Source of the DNA: a virus
Length of the DNA: 20,252 nucleotides
Strand: one strand, 5' to 3'
Virus record (IMG/VR): IMGVR_UViG_3300030105_002524
Coordinates: 1-20,252 of that record
Shown here: one piece after another, positions 1,840 through 19,845 of the stretch
Layout: each line of letters begins with the position of its first letter
Position numbering within the stretch: the first letter of the stretch is position 1
Notes under the pieces: generated by a model
What the model saw: only the letters and a program-made list of their open reading frames with translations
What the model was told of the DNA's origin: nothing
Database searches by the model: none
Made by a program: the position numbers and the translations under genes

Positions 1840-2421
1840 ATGAGACCAGTTAAAGATTGTTATTTTGTTCAGGTAGAAAAAACCCATGAAGATACTGTAA
1901 TATTGAATGGTAAAGAGTTATTTATGAATGTAACTTTTGATGAAATGAGACACGCTAGACAATATGGTACGGTTATTGCATTACCCCAGGGTTTACCTAA
2001 AAATATAAAACTAGATATAAAAGAAGGAGATAAAGTTTATTGTCATCATTTTTTAGTCAGTGAGAATAATAAGGTTAAATACCATGAAAAAGAAAATGTA
2101 TATAGTACCCATTGGAATAATATATACGCTAGAGTTAGAAAAGGCAAATTGAAAATGTTAACTCATTGGAATTTTATAAAACAAAAAATAGAAGATGAAT
2201 CTAACTATATGACTAAATCTGGAATATATACAAAACCAGAAGCAGAAGATGAAGAGTTATATGGATATGTAGAATATTTAAATAAAGATCTTAAAGATAT
2301 GGGCGTTAAGAAGGGTGACGAGATAGTGTTTTCTACAAATTCTGAATATGACATGCAAATAGAAGGTGATAAATTATTAAGAATGCGTAACTTTGATATA
2401 CTAGCCAAAATTGAAAAATAA
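1840..2421 (+). CDS. Tandem GroES-like (Cpn10) co-chaperonin, two barrels in one chain
   Basis: The C-terminal half (residues ~107-193) aligns by eye to a whole GroES subunit: strand LTHWNFIKQKIEDE, a mobile-loop-like KSGIYTKPEA (126-135), YGYVEYLN, VKKGDEIVFS (156-165), and the closing LLRMRNFDILAKIE (179-192), close to the GroES ending 'yLilRe.DILAvie'. The N-terminal half (~4-99) repeats the plan: FVQVEKTHEDTVILNG with a VIL tripeptide like the GroEL-binding IVL, YGTVIALP (42-49), EGDKVYCHHF (62-71) and a final IYARV. GroES is about 95 aa and T4 gp31 111 aa, so 193 aa fits two domains, as in chloroplast Cpn20. GroES caps GroEL during folding; the likely client here is the capsid protein. 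The GroES-like reading is fairly secure for the C-terminal half and more tentative for the N-terminal half. Confidence 0.72.
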   Translation: MRPVKDCYFVQVEKTHEDTVILNGKELFMNVTFDEMRHARQYGTVIALPQGLPKNIKLDIKEGDKVYCHHFLVSENNKVKYHEKENVYSTHWNNIYARVRKGKLKMLTHWNFIKQKIEDESNYMTKSGIYTKPEAEDEELYGYVEYLNKDLKDMGVKKGDEIVFSTNSEYDMQIEGDKLLRMRNFDILAKIEK

Positions 2422-2967: not shown

Positions 2968-2985
2968 TTTAATTTATTATATTTG
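2968..2985 (+). promoter_or_regulatory. Candidate promoter / leader for the terminase gene
   Basis: The TTTAATTTA element at 2968 runs into TATATTTG (2978-2985), a match to the Bacteroidota -7 element TAnnTTTG. A TTG box about 19-21 bp upstream is not evident, so support is partial. A transcript starting about 5 nt downstream would have a leader of roughly 17 nt before ATG 3007. Confidence 0.45.
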
Positions 2986-3006
2986 CATAATTGGCTAAAA
3001 TTTATT

Positions 3007-5031
3007 ATGACAGGTTATATAAAAGTAAGTGGTTTAAAATTTAAGCTTCCTATAAAGCCTAAGAAAAAAGATATATTGTTTTATGATCTAAAAAATAAAG
3101 ATCAAAAATGGAGAAGGACAGAAATGCCTAATGGACTCCATGAAGAAACTATATCTAAATATTCTTGGTTTATAGACCAGGAATTTAAAAGAAGGAAGGA
3201 AGGAATTTGGTTTATGAATAATGGTGAATCTACCTACATAACAGGAGAGCATTATTATTATTTAAACTGGTGTAAGATGGATATAGGTTATCCTGAATAT
3301 AGAGATAGAGATAGGAGGTTTTTTATTTTTTGGGAAATATGCAAACAGGACCAAGACTGTTTCGGTATGATAATGGTTAAACATAGAAGAGAAGGAGCTT
3401 CATATAAAGGAGCTTCTATGCTATTGCACGAAATAACATCTAGGTATAATTCTCATGGAGGAATAGTAAGTAAAACTGGTGCTGATGCTAAATCATTATT
3501 TACAGACAAGCTTGTTTATATGTTTAGGAGTCTTCCATTTTTTTTCCAACCTATTATAGATGGTAGCGATAATCCTAAAAGCACACTTAGTTTTAATACA
3601 CCTGGTCAAAAGATAACTAAGAATTATTCTAAGGTTACTCAATCTGAAGCTTTGAATAGTAGAATAGATTGGAGGAATACTAGAGAGAACTCATATGACT
3701 CTGTAAAACTTATAAGATATTTATGTGACGAGGCTGGTAAATGGACAGAGGCTAGTGTAGAGAAAAATTGGGAAGTTGTTAGATCTTGTTTAACATTAGG
3801 AGACAAAATAATAGGAAAGTGTTTTATGCCTTCTACTGTAAATGAGTTAGAAGTTTCTGGTGGTGAGAAATTTAAAAATATATGGTGTGATAGTGATATA
3901 AAAGAAAGAGATGCTAATGGAAGAACTAGATCAGGAATGTACTCGTATTTTACCCCAGCGTATGATGGGTATGAAGGTTTTATAGATAAGTATGGAATGT
4001 CAGTAATAGATGATCCTACAAAAGAACAATCTAAATTTATAGGTAAAGTTATAGGAGCTAAAGAATATCTTCAAAATGTTAGAGACGCTTACAAGAATAA
4101 CACAACTAAACTTTCTGAAGAGAAGAGACAAAGACCCTTTAGTATAGAAGAAGCTTTTAGAAGTGACTCAAGATACAGTCCTTTTGATGTTGAAAGAATA
4201 TATCAACAAATGGATTATAACGAAGAAGCTACAAACTTAGTAGTTAAAGGTGATTTTGTATGGCAGAAAGGACTAAAAGATACAATGGTATTATGGCAAC
4301 CAGGATCTCAGGGTAGATGGAGAATATCTTGGATACCTCCAGAAGAGAGAAGAAATAACACTACATTAAAATGGGGTAAAAAATCTCCTGGTAATGAAAT
4401 AGAAATGGTGGCGGGATGTGATCCATATGACCATGATACAACTACTGATGGTAGAAGATCTGACGCAGCTTGTTATGTATATAAAAAGTTTAGCATGATA
4501 GATGATTTCTCAAATCAGTTTGTTTGTGAATATATAGCCAGACCTCCTAAGGCGGAGATGTTTTATGAAGATGTTTTAAAGACCTGTGTTTTTTATGGGT
4601 GCCCAATACTTATAGAGAATAATAAAATAGGGATAATAAAATACTTTGAGAGAAGGGGTTATTTAAATTATTTAATGGATAGACCAGAGTCTACACATAC
4701 TGAAAATTCTAGAAGACAAAAAACAAAAGGTATACCTTCTACAGGGGTGGCTGTTTTAAATGCACAAACAGAAGCTATTGCTAGTTATGTATATGATTAT
4801 GTTGGACTTAATAATGAAACTGAAGAAATGGGAAGATGTTATTTTAATAGGCTGTTAGATGATTGGAGTAGATTTGAACCAAACAATAGAACTAAATATG
4901 ATGCTACAGTAGCTTCTAGTTTAGCTTTATTAGGATCACAAAAACATGCAATAGCAAAGAAAATGACAAAAATAAAACTTAACTTTGTTAAGAAATATAG
5001 AAATACAGGATTAATATCTAAGAAAATATAG
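3007..5031 (+). CDS. terL: Terminase large subunit (ATPase and nuclease of the packaging motor)
   Basis: This is the ATP-driven motor that pumps DNA into the prohead and cuts it. Numbered from ATG 3007 (674 aa): a Walker A-like HRREGASYK at 126-134, preceded by MIMVK; a Walker B LIRYLCDEAGKW at 235-246 with Asp-Glu; a coupling-type segment FMPSTVNELEVSGGEKF; and an RNase H-like nuclease with candidate metal ligands Asp472 (GCDPYDHD), Glu537 (ILIENNK) and Asp632 (KYDATVASS). Length and the 'STVNE...GGEKF' style resemble crAss-like terminases. An in-frame TTG at 2983 lies inside the promoter-like TATATTTG, so I chose ATG 3007. The TAG stop directly abuts the portal ATG. Confidence 0.93.
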   Translation: MTGYIKVSGLKFKLPIKPKKKDILFYDLKNKDQKWRRTEMPNGLHEETISKYSWFIDQEFKRRKEGIWFMNNGESTYITGEHYYYLNWCKMDIGYPEYRDRDRRFFIFWEICKQDQDCFGMIMVKHRREGASYKGASMLLHEITSRYNSHGGIVSKTGADAKSLFTDKLVYMFRSLPFFFQPIIDGSDNPKSTLSFNTPGQKITKNYSKVTQSEALNSRIDWRNTRENSYDSVKLIRYLCDEAGKWTEASVEKNWEVVRSCLTLGDKIIGKCFMPSTVNELEVSGGEKFKNIWCDSDIKERDANGRTRSGMYSYFTPAYDGYEGFIDKYGMSVIDDPTKEQSKFIGKVIGAKEYLQNVRDAYKNNTTKLSEEKRQRPFSIEEAFRSDSRYSPFDVERIYQQMDYNEEATNLVVKGDFVWQKGLKDTMVLWQPGSQGRWRISWIPPEERRNNTTLKWGKKSPGNEIEMVAGCDPYDHDTTTDGRRSDAACYVYKKFSMIDDFSNQFVCEYIARPPKAEMFYEDVLKTCVFYGCPILIENNKIGIIKYFERRGYLNYLMDRPESTHTENSRRQKTKGIPSTGVAVLNAQTEAIASYVYDYVGLNNETEEMGRCYFNRLLDDWSRFEPNNRTKYDATVASSLALLGSQKHAIAKKMTKIKLNFVKKYRNTGLISKKI

Positions 5032-7428
5032 ATGGAAAAAAAATATGAACTAATAGGAGGTTACCCTACCGTTTTTGCAACCAATGAAGAAAAAGCTACA
5101 AAAGAATATGGTCTTCAATACATTAAAACTATGTATTCTGATTGGAAAAATAATACCGAACTAGCTTATCAGGATAAAAAAAGAAGTTTTCATAAAATGA
5201 GAGCTTATGCAGAAGGTACTCAGAGTGTAGCTAAATATAAAGATTTATTAGACGTTGAGGGAGATTCTTCTTATATGAATATAGATTGGACTCCAGTATC
5301 TACTATACCTAAATTTGTTGATGTTGTTTGTGGAGATATGACAAATAGAGAGTTTGCTATAAAAGCTAACGCTATAGATGATAAATCTGTGATCAAAAGA
5401 AAAAAAGCTATGAAAACACTAATGGCTGATATGATTACTTCTAAGGTAAGATCTCAACTTACTGAATTAACTGGAAATAATTATAAAAAAGACGGATTTG
5501 TTCCTGAAGATATGGAAGAAATAGAAATGTTTATGAATCTGAATTATAAGCAAGCACATGAAATATCATTAGAAACGGGAATAGAATTTATTTTACAACA
5601 AAATGATTTTGACGAAATTAAAAAGAAATCTATAAGAGATCTAGTGGTTGTTGGTACTGCTGCTTTAAAAACTTATATAGACCCATCAGAAGGTATAAAA
5701 ATAAAATATGTAGATCCTGTTAATTTAATTACTTCTTATTCAGAGTCTTCAGATTATAAAAATATACAACACGCTGGAGAAGTGTATAATATTACTATAG
5801 GTGAATTAAAAACAATAGCTGGAGATCAATTTACAGATGAAGAGTATGAAGATATAGCAACAAAACATTCTAACAAAGCTTCTGATAATGATAATTTATT
5901 TGGTAGATCTTTTTCTAACCATGGAACTTACTCTAGTGAATATGACAAATTTTCTATAGAAATAATGGATTGTGAGTTTATATCAACTTATGATTTAAAT
6001 TATGAAAAAAAAGAAAATTCATTTGGAGGTTATTCTGTAAGTAAAAGAAAAAAAGGATATAAGGTTCCAAAAAAATCAAAACATAAAAGGGAAAAAATAA
6101 ATAGTACAGTAAAAGTTGTTTATAGTGGTAAGTATGTAGTTGGAACAAATTATATATTTGATTATGGTTTAGCTAAAAATATGTCAAGACCTAAGTCTAA
6201 TTTATCTGAGACTAGATTATCTTACATAGTATATAGTCCTAATTTAAATAGAATGAGTAATGTTTCTTTAGTTCAAAGAATGATACCTTTTGCTGATCAA
6301 ATCCAATTAGCTCATTTAAAGATGCAACAGGTTATGGCTAAAGCTAGACCAAAGGGAGCAGCTTTTGAAATAGGATCTTTAGAAAATGTATCTAAAGGAG
6401 ATGGAGGAACATTTACTCCCCTAGAGCTTCAAGAAATATACGATCAAACTGGTAATATATATTATAGAAGAACTGATGATGAAGGAATAGCTTCTAATAC
6501 TGTTCCTATACAAGAGTTAGAAAATGGTATAGGTAGAGATATGATGCAACTTATACAAATATACCAACATAATTTAAATATGATACGTGACGTTACTGGT
6601 GTTAATGAAGCTAGAGACGGTGCTAAACCTTCTAGCGAAGCACTTGTAGGTGTTCAAAAAATACAACTTATGGCATCTAATAATGCTACTAGATCTATAG
6701 ACGATGGTTTTACTAAGATTGTTGAAAATTTAGCAAAGTCTTTATCTATGAAACTTCAAGATATTGTAGAGTATGATAAACCTTTAAAAGGTTATATGTC
6801 TGCTATTGGTAGTGCTTCTATGAAAACAATAGAGATAAATAAAAATATATCTCTTCATGATTTTGGTATAGGAATAGAAGTTGCTCCTGATGAAGAAGAA
6901 AAAGCTAGGCTTGAACAATCTATACAAATGTCATTGGCTCAAAAAGAATTAAGATTAGAAGATGCTATAAATATTAGAGATATTAATAATCCTAAATTAG
7001 CATCAAGAATGTTAATATTAAGAAGAAAGAAATATCAAGAAGAGCAAATGAAAATGTCTCAAGGTCAAGCACAAGCTAATTCACAACAACAACAGCAATC
7101 TGCTCAAGTGGCAGCACAAATGAAACAAGGAGAAATGCAAATGCAAGCTCAAATGGATGCTAAAATGAAAGAAATGGATTCTCAATTTGAAATGCAGAAA
7201 ATGCAGATGGAGTATCAAATGAAAAATCAATTTGAGGAACAGTCACATATGAGAAGATTAAAAGAAATAGATGCAGGTAATATGGGTAAAGTAGCAGCTA
7301 ATCAAGTTCAAGGAGAATCTAGAGAGAAATCTGCTGCAAAAAGTGCTCATTACCAATCTAAAATGATAGAGCAAAGAAAAGGTAAGGATGAACCTATAAG
7401 CGATCCAGACATGATGATGGAAATGTAA
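5032..7428 (+). CDS. Portal protein
   Basis: The 798-aa protein follows the terminase with no gap and precedes scaffold and capsid genes, the classic portal position. It forms the dodecameric ring at one capsid vertex through which DNA passes and to which terminase and tail dock. Portal-like features include a long alpha/beta stem and clip region, with YVDPVNLITSYSESSDYKNI near 230, and the segment YQHNLNMIRDVTGVNEARDG near 510-530, followed by PSSEALVGVQKIQLM, a pattern shared by portals of Bacteroidota podophages. Residues ~670-742 are a Gln/Met-rich coiled coil, perhaps a barrel or core-facing extension. A basic insert (KRKKGYKVPKKSKHKREK) lies near 340-360. Length fits crAss-like portals. 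Confidence 0.88.
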   Translation: MEKKYELIGGYPTVFATNEEKATKEYGLQYIKTMYSDWKNNTELAYQDKKRSFHKMRAYAEGTQSVAKYKDLLDVEGDSSYMNIDWTPVSTIPKFVDVVCGDMTNREFAIKANAIDDKSVIKRKKAMKTLMADMITSKVRSQLTELTGNNYKKDGFVPEDMEEIEMFMNLNYKQAHEISLETGIEFILQQNDFDEIKKKSIRDLVVVGTAALKTYIDPSEGIKIKYVDPVNLITSYSESSDYKNIQHAGEVYNITIGELKTIAGDQFTDEEYEDIATKHSNKASDNDNLFGRSFSNHGTYSSEYDKFSIEIMDCEFISTYDLNYEKKENSFGGYSVSKRKKGYKVPKKSKHKREKINSTVKVVYSGKYVVGTNYIFDYGLAKNMSRPKSNLSETRLSYIVYSPNLNRMSNVSLVQRMIPFADQIQLAHLKMQQVMAKARPKGAAFEIGSLENVSKGDGGTFTPLELQEIYDQTGNIYYRRTDDEGIASNTVPIQELENGIGRDMMQLIQIYQHNLNMIRDVTGVNEARDGAKPSSEALVGVQKIQLMASNNATRSIDDGFTKIVENLAKSLSMKLQDIVEYDKPLKGYMSAIGSASMKTIEINKNISLHDFGIGIEVAPDEEEKARLEQSIQMSLAQKELRLEDAINIRDINNPKLASRMLILRRKKYQEEQMKMSQGQAQANSQQQQQSAQVAAQMKQGEMQMQAQMDAKMKEMDSQFEMQKMQMEYQMKNQFEEQSHMRRLKEIDAGNMGKVAANQVQGESREKSAAKSAHYQSKMIEQRKGKDEPISDPDMMMEM

Positions 7429-8706: not shown

Positions 8707-10158
8707 ATGGCTACAGTAAGTTTAGGTTCTGGTATGGTTTTAACGCCAAATGCCGCTCAAGTTGCTACTTCGGAGAATTATGTAAGTTCTCTTACGACAG
8801 TTTCAGGAGAGTTGCACAAGCGTGACGTATCAGAAAAATTAATAAAAAGGTATGGAGACCAAGGTATTACAGGTCTTCTAGAGCTAATGGGATCGAAAGC
8901 TCCTGTTTCTCAAACAAATTTTGAACATTATGAGGAAACATTCCGACATAATGATATGACAGTTACAATACAAGCAGATAATAATGCAGGAGCAGCAGCA
9001 GGTGGTACAGATGCTATTGATGTTGCTATAACTGACAATTTAGATACTGGTTCATTTGATAATGATCATCCAGTTAGAGTTGGAGATATTGTTTTATTCG
9101 CTGATGGCGATATGGGTTACGTAACAGTAGTTACTGCACCTAACGCTATTGACCCTATTACAATAATTCCATTGACAACTTTTGCGTCAGTAAAAACAGC
9201 TGGTTCTACATATGAAATGTCTATTATAGGTAATGCTTACCCTGAATCATCAGGACAACCAGGATCTTTAATTCCATTATTACATGAATACGAAAACAAC
9301 GTAATGATTATGAAAGAATCATTTGAAGTTTCAGGTACTGAAGCTACAAACGTAGTTTACGTAAAAGTTGATAATGAAAAAATGGGATCAGGTTACCTTT
9401 GGTATTTAAAAGGTGAGTCAGATACTTACAAAAGATTCATGGACTATTGTGAATTACAAATGATCTTAGGTAAGAAAATCACTAACTCGGTGTTAACTGG
9501 TTCTTCTGCTACTATTGATGGTGTTGCAAGTACGTCTTTATCTACTCTTAGAAGTACAGAAGGTTTATTTGACTTTGTTGCTAACAAAGGGCAATCAATG
9601 GATTTAGGATCTGCTGCAATTACAATGGCTGATTTTGATAATATTGTTAAATCTTTAGATAAATACAGAGGTGCAAAAGAAATGGCTATGTACGCTGGTA
9701 TTAATTTATCTTTAGATATTGATGATTTATTAGCTGCTCAAGGTGCTTATGCTGCTGGTGGTGCCAACTTTGGTACTTTCCAGAATAATAAGAACATGGC
9801 ATTGAATTTAGGTTTCAACTCTTTCACAAGAGGAGGTTATACATTCCATAAGAAAACTTATGATTTGTTAAATCACCCTAAATTGACTGCTATGACTGGT
9901 TCTAATTATCCAGGATGGGGTATTTGTATTCCTATGGACATGCAAAAAGATGCTAAGTCTGGAGAAAAGATCCCTTCGTTAAGAATGCGATATAAAGCGG
10001 CAAATGGTTATTCAAGAGAGATGGAACACTGGTTAACAGGTTCAGCAGTTTTACAAAATAAAACAGAAACTCAAGATAGACTTAAATCTCACTACAGAAC
10101 TGAGAGAGGGTTTGAAGGTTTCGCTGCGAATCGTTACATGTTAATCAAGAAATCTTAA
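8707..10158 (+). CDS. Major capsid protein
   Basis: The 483-aa length, the position after portal and scaffold-like genes, and the layout match crAss-like major capsid proteins (HK97-type fold). The N-terminus carries SEKLIKRYGDQGITGLLELM, then SQTNFEHYEETFRHNDMTVT, the E-loop/P-domain entry typical of these proteins. A beta-rich stretch ~90-170 (NDHPVRVGDIVLFADGDMGY) looks like an inserted or extended domain. ESDTYKRFMDYCELQMILGK near 235-260 is the spine-helix region. The C-terminal part has YKAANGYSREMEHWLTGSAV. It builds the icosahedral shell, probably without covalent processing, as no protease is seen. Codon choice (some CGT/CGA Arg, more C-ending codons) differs from neighbours, as expected for high expression. 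Confidence 0.9.
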   Translation: MATVSLGSGMVLTPNAAQVATSENYVSSLTTVSGELHKRDVSEKLIKRYGDQGITGLLELMGSKAPVSQTNFEHYEETFRHNDMTVTIQADNNAGAAAGGTDAIDVAITDNLDTGSFDNDHPVRVGDIVLFADGDMGYVTVVTAPNAIDPITIIPLTTFASVKTAGSTYEMSIIGNAYPESSGQPGSLIPLLHEYENNVMIMKESFEVSGTEATNVVYVKVDNEKMGSGYLWYLKGESDTYKRFMDYCELQMILGKKITNSVLTGSSATIDGVASTSLSTLRSTEGLFDFVANKGQSMDLGSAAITMADFDNIVKSLDKYRGAKEMAMYAGINLSLDIDDLLAAQGAYAAGGANFGTFQNNKNMALNLGFNSFTRGGYTFHKKTYDLLNHPKLTAMTGSNYPGWGICIPMDMQKDAKSGEKIPSLRMRYKAANGYSREMEHWLTGSAVLQNKTETQDRLKSHYRTERGFEGFAANRYMLIKKS

Positions 10159-14826: not shown

Positions 14827-17800
14827 ATGTCTAATTTTCAAAAAAAACAAATTAAAAAAGTATTTGTTGGTGGATTAGATAAAGACACTGACCTTCAACT
14901 TCAAAAAAATGGTGATTACCACCATGGTTTGAATATAAGAAACATTTCATCAGAGTCTACTACAGAAGGGGTAATAGAAAACATAAAAGGAAATACAAAA
15001 TCTCCTTACAATTTTCCAGAACTACCTGCTGTAGGTAAAAGAAGACTAACTCTATTTATGCCTTGGTTTAACTACTTCTTTAATTATGGAGGCACTAACC
15101 CTAATCTAGGTGAGGATATTTCTACTGAAAATTTTGATGGACAAATTAGAGATGAAAATGATCCTCATACTTATGAAATATATGTAGGAGCAACTGAAGA
15201 ATTTTTTGATCCTGTTACAGGATTAACAACAGAATATACAGCAGGTTTCGGGGATACAGAAGAAGTAACAGTTTTTCCTTTTCCTCATTACTTTGCTGCT
15301 CCTGGAAGTAATATAGCGGAAACCTTTGGGAATCCATCTATAACATTATTAACTTTTGATATAGCTATAGGTTTTTCTTTAGCTGAAATGTCAAGTCCTT
15401 CTAATTTATTTCAAATATCATATAATGGAGAAGATGCTCCAAGGATGTCTAATTACCTGACTCATTTTGTTAATCAACACTCTGCTAATTTTTCTGCTTT
15501 AGGTATTACTGTAAGTGTTATTGATAATAATAGTCCTTATTTTGACGAAGAGTATTACTTTGGAGAGTCAACTTTAAATAATATAACTAGCCATCCAGAC
15601 TACACTCCAGGTCAAATTTATGCATATGCACTTTTATTTGAAGGAGCTTATTCTTCTGATGCAAATGGGAATGAAGAAGGATTATTCTATATTGATTTAA
15701 AAACATCTTCATCAGCACAACCTTTAAATATAGGTAGTCCAGATAATGTAACTGGAACATTATTTACTGTCAATTCTGATGGACTTAGTCCATATTTTTT
15801 TAACCCTGAAGAGTATGGGGTGAGTGACGGTTATCCATGGGATTTAACTACAGATACATCTTATGTGTTTGGTGATAATCTAGATTGGTCTGGATCATTA
15901 TCAAGTGATATATGGTTAACAGAAGATGTTGGTGGATTTGAAACTATAGGATGGACGATGGGAGGTTTTGGACCCTATATGAGTGAAAGTTATGACACAG
16001 ATGCAGTATATCATGGTGATGTATTAGACCCTTTAGTTTTGAAAACTTTTATGATGGGAAATGCAACTATAGTTAATGATACTACATCTTCTGGTTTTGA
16101 TATTGATGGTAATGCTGTTGAAGAAATTAGTTACGATACTATAGGTGCTTATGAAGACACTAGAAACGATAAAATATACTGGATGGTAGCTAGTAGTCAT
16201 CATTTTCATTTAATATTAGAGTATGATATAAAAACAAATTCAGTTGAAACTGTATTTAGAGATTCTGGAAATAACGCTACCAGTGTTTTTAATTGGAGAA
16301 AAGAGTTTTTAATAAATGATATTGATAGAGTTGGAGATGTTTTATATTGGACATCTAGACAGTATGGAGAACCTTGTTCTATAAATGTTAGAAAATCAAA
16401 AATTAGTATAGCTCTTGTAGACTCTCTTAATGAACCATATGTTTTAGATGAAGAGGGAGGTACAAGTGGTATAAGTCTAGAAGATTATTATCCATATAAC
16501 CTATATAATCCAGATTACCCATCAGAGAGTAAAAGAGAGTATGTAGAGGTAATTAAAAGACCTCCTATGTATGCTCCTGTATATGTGTACTCTAGTGACA
16601 CTACAATATCTAAAAATAATCTTTTTGGAAATTTATTCCAATTCAGGTATAGATATCATTTTTATGATAATGAAGTTAGTGCATGGTCTCCTATTAGTGA
16701 TATTACACCTTCTTCTTTTGATAATATGAATATATCACAAACAAACATAACTCCTCAAGTTGATAATTTTCTAATAATATCTGTAAAAAACTCATCAGGA
16801 ATAGTTAAAAAAATAGAAATAGTTGGAAGAAAATGTAAAGATTTAGGAGCTATAAGTAGAGGTAATAGAGGTCCATATTCTATCGTAGCTACATTAGATA
16901 ATGATTTTAGTGCTTGGCAATTAAATTCAGAATCAGAACAACAAATATCTTTTTATAATGATCAAGCATATCCAAATGTACAGGCAGGAGAAGGAGAGAG
17001 GTTATTTGATGCTGTACCTAGATCTGCACAAACACAAACTATATTAGGAAATAATAGGTTAACATATGGTAATTATACAGAAGGATTTGATGTACCTAAA
17101 GTAAATTTATCTGTAACACCACAATATGGTTATGTTAATGGAGATGATAAACCTTATGGAGGTCCAAATTATACTAATCCAGTAACATTCGATGTGGGCG
17201 AGTCTGTCTCATCATTTAAAAGTGGAGCCTTCCATAGTTTCGGTATAGTTTATTATGATGAAAAAGGAAGGTGCTCTACAGTATTAACTGATGACACTTC
17301 TAAATGTTATGTTAAGTTTCCTACAGAAAGGGTAAGTGGAGATATACCTACTGGCATAGGTAATCCAGATCTTACTGGAGCTGTAACAATGAAGTGGTCT
17401 ATAAGTCATAGTGCTCCTAGTTGGGCTAAACACTATAGATGGTTTTATTCTAGAAACAATACTGTAGATCAATTTGTTCAATTTAGAGTTTTACAGGCTA
17501 AAGGTAATAATGATGGAGCTTCTAATGATAATAGAATATTCTTAAACTTAAGAGGTTTAAAAGGTTCTGATGACTCATATATAACAAACGCTGAGTTAGA
17601 TCCTAACGCTGTACCAAATCCAGATATAAGCATCTTAGATTATGAGTTTACAAAGGGTGATAGAGTTAGAATTATTACTTCAGGTACTCAAACTACAGCT
17701 GGTTTCCCAGTAACAGAAAATATATTAACAACTTATTATGACGCTAAGGTTTCAGGTTTTGAGTTTTACGCTCAGAATAATACTGATATACCTATTAGAA

Positions 17801-19845
17801 ACAATAATGGAACAAATGCTTTACTAGCTGATGGTTCTGAAGATGGATGGTATCTTATTATAGATGAGTTAATAGACTCAACTGGAACCCCTATAGCTGG
17901 TTATAGTTCTGCCTCTGTGTTAGCAAACTCAGATAGTTTAGAACAGTCTATAATTGAAATATATAAACCTAAACCAGATGCTGAACCAGGAGAATTATTA
18001 TACTTTGAGTATAGTGAATTATACGGTATAAGTAATATTGGAGGTAGGCATTTAGGTCCTTTAAGTGATCAGGGTGCTCCTTTTACTTTTGATGCTTTTG
18101 GAAACTCCACATCTGCTACACCAGCAACAGGAGAATTTTTATTTGGTGATGTGTATTATAAAAGAAGAAATATGCAGATGATTAATTCAGGTGCAAAACA
18201 AGAACAAGAGTTTTATGTTGAGGATTATTTCTTAAATGACTTTACAGATAGTAATCATATTAGTGTAGGTAGAGCTAATATTTATTCAGCATTTTTTAGA
18301 CAACAAGATAAAGAAGCTTCTTTAACATATTCTGATGTTTATCAACCAGCTACCAGTTTTAATGGTTTAAGCACTTTTAATTATAATTTATTTAATTGGG
18401 AAGATTACAGTAGAATATATGGTAGTATACAAAAAATACACTATAGAGAAACAGACATAGTAATGATACAAGAGGATGCAACATATAAAATTCCTGTTCA
18501 AAGAGATATATTACTTAGTGCTGATGGAAAGGGTATGGTTGGTGTATCTAATAAAATATTAAACCCTGTAGTTCCTTTTGCAGGTAATTACGGTATAAGT
18601 AAAAATGCTGAGTCATTTGTAGCTAACGGTAGTGTGTTATACTGGACTGATATACGAAGAGGTGCTATTTTAAGATTATCTGGGGATGGTATAACTCCTA
18701 TATCTGATGTTAAGATGCATGATTACTTTAGAGATAAAGAAGAAGTTTATAGAATTTATGATCCTCAATTTCAATGGAGCGGTGATTATGGAAATATATC
18801 AAGTGCCATGCTTTCTAATCAACACAAAGATTTTAGAATAAAAGGAGGTTTTAATCCTAAGCACGAAGAGTATATAGTTCAAATGGACCCTATACCTACA
18901 TCTAAACGTGATTGGGATACTATTACTGAAACATATGATAATGCTGGAGCTGATCCATATGAAGTGGAAGTGATAAGTGAAGAATCAGAGAATTTAGTTG
19001 AAGGATCTGTAATAGCTTGGAGAGAGAAACAAAAGAGATGGGTAAGTGAATATTCTCATATGGCTGAATACTATTGTAAAATAAATAGATTATTTGTTTC
19101 TTGGGACAGTGGATTTTTATATCTACATGATCAAGATGAAGATAATTACAATACTTTCTACGGGGTTACTTATGATGTTGAGTTAGATTTTTCTATAAAT
19201 GAAAGTCCATCTACAGTTAAAGGTTTTAAAAGTATTGTTTTAGAAGCTAACCAAGCTGTTGAATCAGACTCAGCAGGAGTAGAGGAAACAGAAAAGACAT
19301 CTTATGATATTACTTTAGTAACAGATATGACTCAAACGTCTATAAACAGGAATAATTTTGATCAAAGAGAAAATAAACAATATACTATGATACCTTTTGT
19401 TACAACAAATAGCACAGGTTCAGAAATTATAGGTATTGGGTCAGGAACTGTAGAAGCAGTAGATGATAATGGAGATAGTGCTTTACAAACAGTTACAGGT
19501 TTCCAAACTACATTTGGTTCATCATCATTAATATTAGGAACGTCTAGTGATGTTTCTTCTAATTCTTATGGTGATCAATTATTTTATAATGATGGAACAA
19601 GTGATGTTCTTGTAGGTACTATATCTGATTTAAATAGTGATACAGAGCTTACTCTTGCTGCTGATGCTGTTCCATTTGTTCCAGTAGGTAGTAAATTCTT
19701 ATTTGTTAAAAGAAGTGGTTTTGCCGAAGGAGATAGAATGAAAGGTAGGTACATGGAAATTAAAATGAAGAAGAAATCTAAAAAATTACTTGAAATATTT
19801 AGTAGTACTGCTACTGTATTTAATAGTGAGTTAAGTGACGACTAA
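14827..19845 (+). CDS. Tail stabilisation / muzzle protein, P22 gp10-like family
   Basis: This 1672-aa protein is the largest in the window. The N-terminal KKVFVGGLDKDTDLQLQKNG, then DYHHGLNIRNISSE and IENIKGN (13-57), is the signature of phage stabilisation/tail-tubular-B-like proteins. The core resumes at YDTIGAYEDTRNDKIYWMVA (~436) with DIDRVGDVLYWTSRQYGEP. Later come YWTDIRRGAILRLSGDGITP (~1273) and the terminal GDRMKGRYMEIKMKKKSKKL. These repeated beta blocks suggest propeller-like domains closing the tail end. Two segments look inserted: ~61-435 and ~1527-1630. In crAss001 the corresponding protein forms the muzzle at the distal end of the tail barrel. Family membership is fairly secure; receptor contact by the insertions is speculation. 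Confidence 0.8.
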   Translation: MSNFQKKQIKKVFVGGLDKDTDLQLQKNGDYHHGLNIRNISSESTTEGVIENIKGNTKSPYNFPELPAVGKRRLTLFMPWFNYFFNYGGTNPNLGEDISTENFDGQIRDENDPHTYEIYVGATEEFFDPVTGLTTEYTAGFGDTEEVTVFPFPHYFAAPGSNIAETFGNPSITLLTFDIAIGFSLAEMSSPSNLFQISYNGEDAPRMSNYLTHFVNQHSANFSALGITVSVIDNNSPYFDEEYYFGESTLNNITSHPDYTPGQIYAYALLFEGAYSSDANGNEEGLFYIDLKTSSSAQPLNIGSPDNVTGTLFTVNSDGLSPYFFNPEEYGVSDGYPWDLTTDTSYVFGDNLDWSGSLSSDIWLTEDVGGFETIGWTMGGFGPYMSESYDTDAVYHGDVLDPLVLKTFMMGNATIVNDTTSSGFDIDGNAVEEISYDTIGAYEDTRNDKIYWMVASSHHFHLILEYDIKTNSVETVFRDSGNNATSVFNWRKEFLINDIDRVGDVLYWTSRQYGEPCSINVRKSKISIALVDSLNEPYVLDEEGGTSGISLEDYYPYNLYNPDYPSESKREYVEVIKRPPMYAPVYVYSSDTTISKNNLFGNLFQFRYRYHFYDNEVSAWSPISDITPSSFDNMNISQTNITPQVDNFLIISVKNSSGIVKKIEIVGRKCKDLGAISRGNRGPYSIVATLDNDFSAWQLNSESEQQISFYNDQAYPNVQAGEGERLFDAVPRSAQTQTILGNNRLTYGNYTEGFDVPKVNLSVTPQYGYVNGDDKPYGGPNYTNPVTFDVGESVSSFKSGAFHSFGIVYYDEKGRCSTVLTDDTSKCYVKFPTERVSGDIPTGIGNPDLTGAVTMKWSISHSAPSWAKHYRWFYSRNNTVDQFVQFRVLQAKGNNDGASNDNRIFLNLRGLKGSDDSYITNAELDPNAVPNPDISILDYEFTKGDRVRIITSGTQTTAGFPVTENILTTYYDAKVSGFEFYAQNNTDIPIRNNNGTNALLADGSEDGWYLIIDELIDSTGTPIAGYSSASVLANSDSLEQSIIEIYKPKPDAEPGELLYFEYSELYGISNIGGRHLGPLSDQGAPFTFDAFGNSTSATPATGEFLFGDVYYKRRNMQMINSGAKQEQEFYVEDYFLNDFTDSNHISVGRANIYSAFFRQQDKEASLTYSDVYQPATSFNGLSTFNYNLFNWEDYSRIYGSIQKIHYRETDIVMIQEDATYKIPVQRDILLSADGKGMVGVSNKILNPVVPFAGNYGISKNAESFVANGSVLYWTDIRRGAILRLSGDGITPISDVKMHDYFRDKEEVYRIYDPQFQWSGDYGNISSAMLSNQHKDFRIKGGFNPKHEEYIVQMDPIPTSKRDWDTITETYDNAGADPYEVEVISEESENLVEGSVIAWREKQKRWVSEYSHMAEYYCKINRLFVSWDSGFLYLHDQDEDNYNTFYGVTYDVELDFSINESPSTVKGFKSIVLEANQAVESDSAGVEETEKTSYDITLVTDMTQTSINRNNFDQRENKQYTMIPFVTTNSTGSEIIGIGSGTVEAVDDNGDSALQTVTGFQTTFGSSSLILGTSSDVSSNSYGDQLFYNDGTSDVLVGTISDLNSDTELTLAADAVPFVPVGSKFLFVKRSGFAEGDRMKGRYMEIKMKKKSKKLLEIFSSTATVFNSELSDD

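Follow-up and report, generated by a model that had tools for sequence, protein, structure and literature searches.

Why should a phage encode what appear to be two fused co-chaperonins beside its packaging genes? The question is raised by a 20,252-nucleotide stretch of viral DNA (the window, a record that is itself a 20 kb fragment), for which an initial sequence-only reading proposed that a gene next to those for terminase, portal and capsid encodes two GroES domains in tandem. An ORF of 193 codons, from ATG to stop, lies at exactly 1840–2421 of the plus strand, with small ORFs on one side and the terminase, portal and capsid genes on the other, a setting that PHROG and Pfam matches bear out:

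1840..2421, plus strand: tandem Cpn10 (GroES-type) gene, 193 residues (Pfam Cpn10, PHROG 13932, AlphaFold2 model, Foldseek)
1840..2148, plus strand: domain 1, residues 1–103, divergent Cpn10 with a GD-x(4)-HH signature (G63, D64, H69, H70; hhalign)
1888..1953, plus strand: candidate mobile loop of domain 1, residues ~17–38, with K25-E26-L27 at the tripeptide position, then F28-M29 (aligned with GroES I25-V26-L27)
2149..2418, plus strand: domain 2, residues 104–193, more canonical Cpn10 (hhalign; profile against PDB)
2188..2256, plus strand: candidate mobile loop of domain 2, residues ~117–139, TKSGIYT, with I129-Y130-T131 at the tripeptide position (aligned with GroES GG-IVL)
2983..5031, plus strand: terminase large subunit (PHROG 6681, 2.2e-156)
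5032..7428, plus strand: portal protein (PHROG 6547, 3.6e-143)
8707..10158, plus strand: major capsid protein, 483 residues, putative client (PHROG 13704, 7.9e-74; Pfam SU10_MCP, 1.3e-7)

Two small ORFs, 2421–2720 and 2656–2958, separate the tandem gene from terminase in the window; read in different frames, they share a 65-base overlap 5′ of the terminase gene, and neither has a confident family in Pfam or PHROG. The largest gene of the window (14827–19845) encodes a 1672-residue virion structural protein (PHROG 14478, 5e-96).

Two Cpn10 domains head to tail

Profile comparisons and structure prediction confirm the 193-residue protein as two Cpn10/GroES domains arranged head to tail (approximately residues 1–103 and 104–193). 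The whole protein matches Pfam Cpn10 (PF00166) in two stretches (7.9e-13, 48.7 bits; curated cut-off 21.1), while the C-terminal half alone lies above the cut-off (2.8e-8, 34.1 bits) and the N-terminal half alone slightly below it (0.0012, 19.2 bits). PHROG 13932, a profile of 200 positions, is matched at 1e-23 by residues 8–191 of 193 (positions 7–199), the two halves of the protein aligning to the corresponding halves of the profile.

Domain profiles were derived from an alignment of 40 diverse relatives cut at residue 104, and the Cpn10 comparison profile from phage single-domain GroES proteins and E. coli GroES. Aligned end to end, the domain 1 and domain 2 profiles match each other with an E-value of 5.2e-8 and a score of 44.8, compared with a maximum of 15.3 in 30 column shuffles. 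Both match the Cpn10 profile in hhalign, domain 1 at 7.2e-8 (score 44.6, shuffles at most 14.4) and domain 2 at 5.8e-13 (score 69.0, shuffles at most 15.0). The N-terminal half is therefore no unrelated fold, since it matches both Cpn10 and its C-terminal partner. Among PDB sequences the domain 2 profile retrieves GroES (2.6e-8) and the Cpn20 chain 7ekq_R (0.0018), and the domain 1 profile retrieves no GroES; the top PDB match of domain 1, 4p99 (9.1e-6), was rejected because its score adds up weak repeats, none of them a significant stretch by itself. Judged by these profiles, domain 2 is the more canonical Cpn10 domain and domain 1 the divergent one.

The 'GD' strands and closing strands picked out by the sequence-only reading are present in both domains, and profiles, conservation and fold comparison all agree with its two successive Cpn10 barrels. 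Across the family (40 diverse relatives) G63, D64 and H70 are invariant and H69 is nearly so. The resulting His-His pair (residues 69–70, window 2044–2049) follows the GD turn of domain 1 and is absent from E. coli GroES.

Predicted structure and comparison with Cpn20

An AlphaFold2 model built on the 40-sequence alignment (pLDDT 84.3, pTM 0.78) dips in confidence at residues ~21–40 and ~121–140, the expected sites of mobile loops. The best PDB match of the full-length model in Foldseek is 7ekq_R, the Cpn20 subunit of Chlamydomonas (E-value 6.5e-7), to which the predicted model aligns with a TM-score of 0.65 by either length and an rmsd of 5.2 over 207 alignment columns. The other long chain of that complex, 7ekq_Q, which is taken as Cpn23, matches over its own length, and GroES chains match over ~100 columns only; T4 gp31 gives a weak structural match (E-value 0.063), ranked far below Cpn20. 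Full-length matches in a viral structure library include the phi18:3 'chaperonin cpn10'. When a distant ctfjg026-type protein was modelled as well, 7ekq_R and 7ekq_Q came out as the top two matches, the predicted fit to Cpn20 being looser (TM-score 0.56, rmsd 6.7). The modelled domain arrangement resembles that of solved Cpn20, as the sequence-only reading had anticipated.

Chloroplast and apicoplast Cpn20 likewise consist of two Cpn10 domains head to tail (~195 residues), with ~21% identity to the window protein in structural alignment. The latter differs in being phage-encoded and in its highly divergent domain 1, which carries the GD-x(4)-HH signature and, in the clade to which the window belongs (the window clade), has no hydrophobic tripeptide at the aligned position. 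Shared descent with the plastid and apicoplast proteins is unlikely given the phage context, and the tandem fusion probably arose independently of plastid Cpn20. T4 gp31 and other single-domain phage GroES proteins (PHROG 3188) are also phage-encoded Cpn10 folds, but have one domain.

Mobile loops

GroES I25-V26-L27 aligns with K25-E26-L27 in domain 1 and with I129-Y130-T131 in domain 2. The tripeptide first suggested for domain 1, VIL (residues 20–22), is misplaced: it lies opposite GroES K-S-A in the alignment, within the rising strand of the loop, leaving KEL at the tripeptide position in the window clade. L27-F28-M29 could, at a guess, provide a shifted hydrophobic patch. The domain 1 loop is modelled with a pLDDT of ~71–72 and predicted strands at 19–22 and 25–28, and the domain 2 loop with a pLDDT of 58–64. 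In domain 2 the tripeptide position falls on I129-Y130-T131 and not on the proposed GIY, and these residues are a partial fit to the GroEL-binding hydrophobic tripeptide. Within the window clade the SGI of this loop is largely conserved.

In a group comprising ctfjg026, elemo, Panino and L255, domain 1 loops are kept (e.g. GG-I-E-F in ctfjg026) but the domain 2 loop is shortened or missing, and its loss coincides with possession of a phage GroEL. In the tree the loop-less proteins cluster together, though with imperfect support, so the loss may have been a single event.

A conserved gene upstream of terminase

Relatives are found in phi38:1, phi40:1, Calle_1–3, ctfjg026, phi13:2, phi18:3, phi19:3, phi46:3 and Panino, a matching tandem gene is present in elemo phages, and hundreds of IMG/VR contigs carry further relatives (540 candidates for one query). 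In hundreds of aquatic phages the gene adjoins DNA-packaging genes. PHROG 13932 members (phi38:1 gp089, phi18:3 gp096, Calle_1 gp013, Panino CDS0088 and elemo gp30) are full-length homologues, also upstream of terminase; those compared pairwise are ~23–31% identical to the window protein. Domain 2 is present in all 117 retrieved ORFs that have domain 1 (some redundant); no protein with domain 1 only occurs among the retrieved family loci, and the single ORF with domain 2 only is truncated where its contig stops. Within the window clade dN/dS is ~0.09–0.18 over the whole gene, a pair with the distant L210 having been dropped as its alignment was out of register. The two-domain architecture is under purifying selection.

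The tandem gene lies closely upstream of terminase, with 0–2 small ORFs between, in all annotated records inspected and in the window clade, and this position upstream of terminase and portal is seen in Pervagoviridae, Baltivirus, Elemovirus, Panino, ctfjg026 and the window clade. One could imagine from this conserved place that the protein is a virion or neck component reusing the Cpn10 fold, but we think this very improbable, as the window clade keeps a loop motif and the Cpn10 core, and MS/MS virion proteomics notes in the phi18:3 record name neighbours (gp085–087 and portal gp099) and not the tandem gp096, whose omission fits an assembly helper.

A search of genome contigs with the query P0001 returned no relative, and one with a ctfjg026-type query returned five MAG contigs (L121–L125) of inconsistent taxonomy, probably binned or misassembled phage DNA. 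Their MAG names include Aenigmatarchaeota, Aliivibrio, bacterium TMED88 and Nitrosomonadaceae, and L121 lies on a record of 1.05 Mb that is designated a chromosome.

Chaperonin genes of the relatives

A GroEL homologue is encoded by phi38:1, Calle_1, ctfjg026, Panino, elemo and eight IMG/VR records, and all thirteen carry a single-domain GroES besides the tandem gene (13/13, Pfam). Single-domain GroES also accompanies the tandem gene in phi18:3, phi19:3 and G004, where no GroEL was found. Among 16 mostly full-size records, 13 have a separate single-domain GroES, ten of these together with GroEL. This patchy distribution agrees with the report by Nishimura et al. of GroEL in 36 of 78 environmental genomes of the phi38:1 group (PMC5332604). 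The flavobacterial phage GroEL/GroES pairs belong to the same phage group as the tandem gene, which is additional to them; they occupy a different module as separate genes, at a distance from it in phi38:1 (L118 2251–4374) and ctfjg026 (L119 2672–4562), and in phi38:1 they adjoin DNA polymerase genes.

The window clade differs from several PHROG 13932 phages in lacking their phage GroEL and extra GroES: in its records of 49, 60.6 and 63 kb neither GroEL nor a second GroES was found, leaving the tandem gene only. A 99-base direct terminal repeat in the 63 kb record suggests a complete genome, so the lack of a phage GroEL is probably real there. Two of the window clade's relatives contain a weak further Cpn10-like match with an in-frame TAA (G029:C1:42177–42404 and G030:C1:7304–7522), perhaps a decayed copy.

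Proposed function

T4 gp31 caps host GroEL for capsid folding. We consider it fairly probable that the tandem protein likewise acts as a co-chaperonin, forming a GroES-like ring lid on host GroEL for the folding of phage head proteins. The two fused domains would occupy adjacent subunit positions in a GroES-like ring, several copies building a lid of about seven Cpn10 domains in which host GroES might fill the odd place (3 × 2 + 1). Through its mobile loops the lid would cap host GroEL, and the capped chaperonin would help to fold late-made head proteins, most plausibly the capsid protein. Since near-complete relatives lack a GroEL of their own, host GroEL, the only GroEL known to be available, is the likely partner in the window clade, as judged from gene content. 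Precedents for such a lid exist: Pf-cpn20 replaces GroES in E. coli (PMC3542282), GroES concatemers of 6–8 domains work with GroEL and Cpn20 forms seven-domain hetero-oligomers with Cpn10 (PMC5780408), and plastid or apicoplast Cpn20 acts as a homo-oligomer or with Cpn10 (PMC5780408; PMC3542282). Counting against GroEL capping are the KEL of domain 1 in the window clade and the loss of the domain 2 loop in a large sister lineage.

In sister lineages with GroEL, GroES and the tandem gene, the tandem protein and the phage GroES may instead form a mixed seven-domain lid on phage GroEL. The frequent co-occurrence of these genes described above and the chloroplast Cpn10–Cpn20 precedent (PMC5780408) speak for such an arrangement, which concerns the sister lineages and is compatible with host GroEL capping in the window clade. 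We nevertheless regard it as rather unlikely: the genes belong to different modules a long way from one another, and phi18:3 and phi19:3 have GroES but no GroEL. Nor can it be a general rule, because the window clade has neither GroEL nor a second GroES.

It is also conceivable, if improbable, that a ring of tandem Cpn10 proteins caps a target other than GroEL, such as a protease ring, the portal or another phage ring. In its favour, the model resembles 7ekq most closely, which is a ClpP-capping complex, the Chlamydomonas Cpn11/20/23 complex being known to cap ClpP (PMC8889267), but this match is uninformative on the target, as 7ekq ranks best because it contains solved Cpn20 chains. Many relatives have a separate GroEL/GroES pair elsewhere in the genome, so that the tandem gene, near portal and terminase and away from phage groEL, may do another job there, and the ctfjg026/elemo/Panino/L255 group has lost its domain 2 loop. 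Against this, the domain 2 loop of the window clade keeps the GroES-like SGI and is modelled with the low confidence that a mobile loop would show, and no candidate ring partner besides GroEL was found. Host GroEL capping remains our preferred reading for the window clade.

A putative tandem lid outside plastids

The family is not without labels: it is PHROG 13932, which bears the label 'co-chaperonin GroES', RefSeq uses that name for it in Cellulophaga, Flavobacterium and Maribacter phages, and the Pervagoviridae core proteins include a 'chaperonin cpn10' (PMC8776804). Searches of the open-access literature for tandem GroES/Cpn10 turned up plastid and apicoplast papers only, and no account of a phage tandem form. 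The suggestion that no phage example had been described agrees with these searches as regards the tandem architecture, but does not hold for the Cpn10/GroES assignment, which the family already bears.

To our knowledge, only plastids and apicoplasts have so far served to study how an even-domain lid fits a seven-fold chaperonin. The compact phage version, which occurs in cultured phages of Cellulophaga, Flavobacterium and Maribacter as well as in hundreds of environmental contigs, offers a tractable system. As a tentative and rather doubtful extension, phages akin to the flavobacterial phages may have evolved a two-domain lid independently of chloroplasts, in some cases alongside a GroEL and a single-domain GroES of their own, and may combine it with phage or host GroES into mixed seven-domain lids dedicated to capsid folding. 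The phage tandem form suggests that fusion of two GroES domains arose more than once, and a head-folding lid would explain why a gene today labelled just 'GroES' is conserved at the head of the packaging module.
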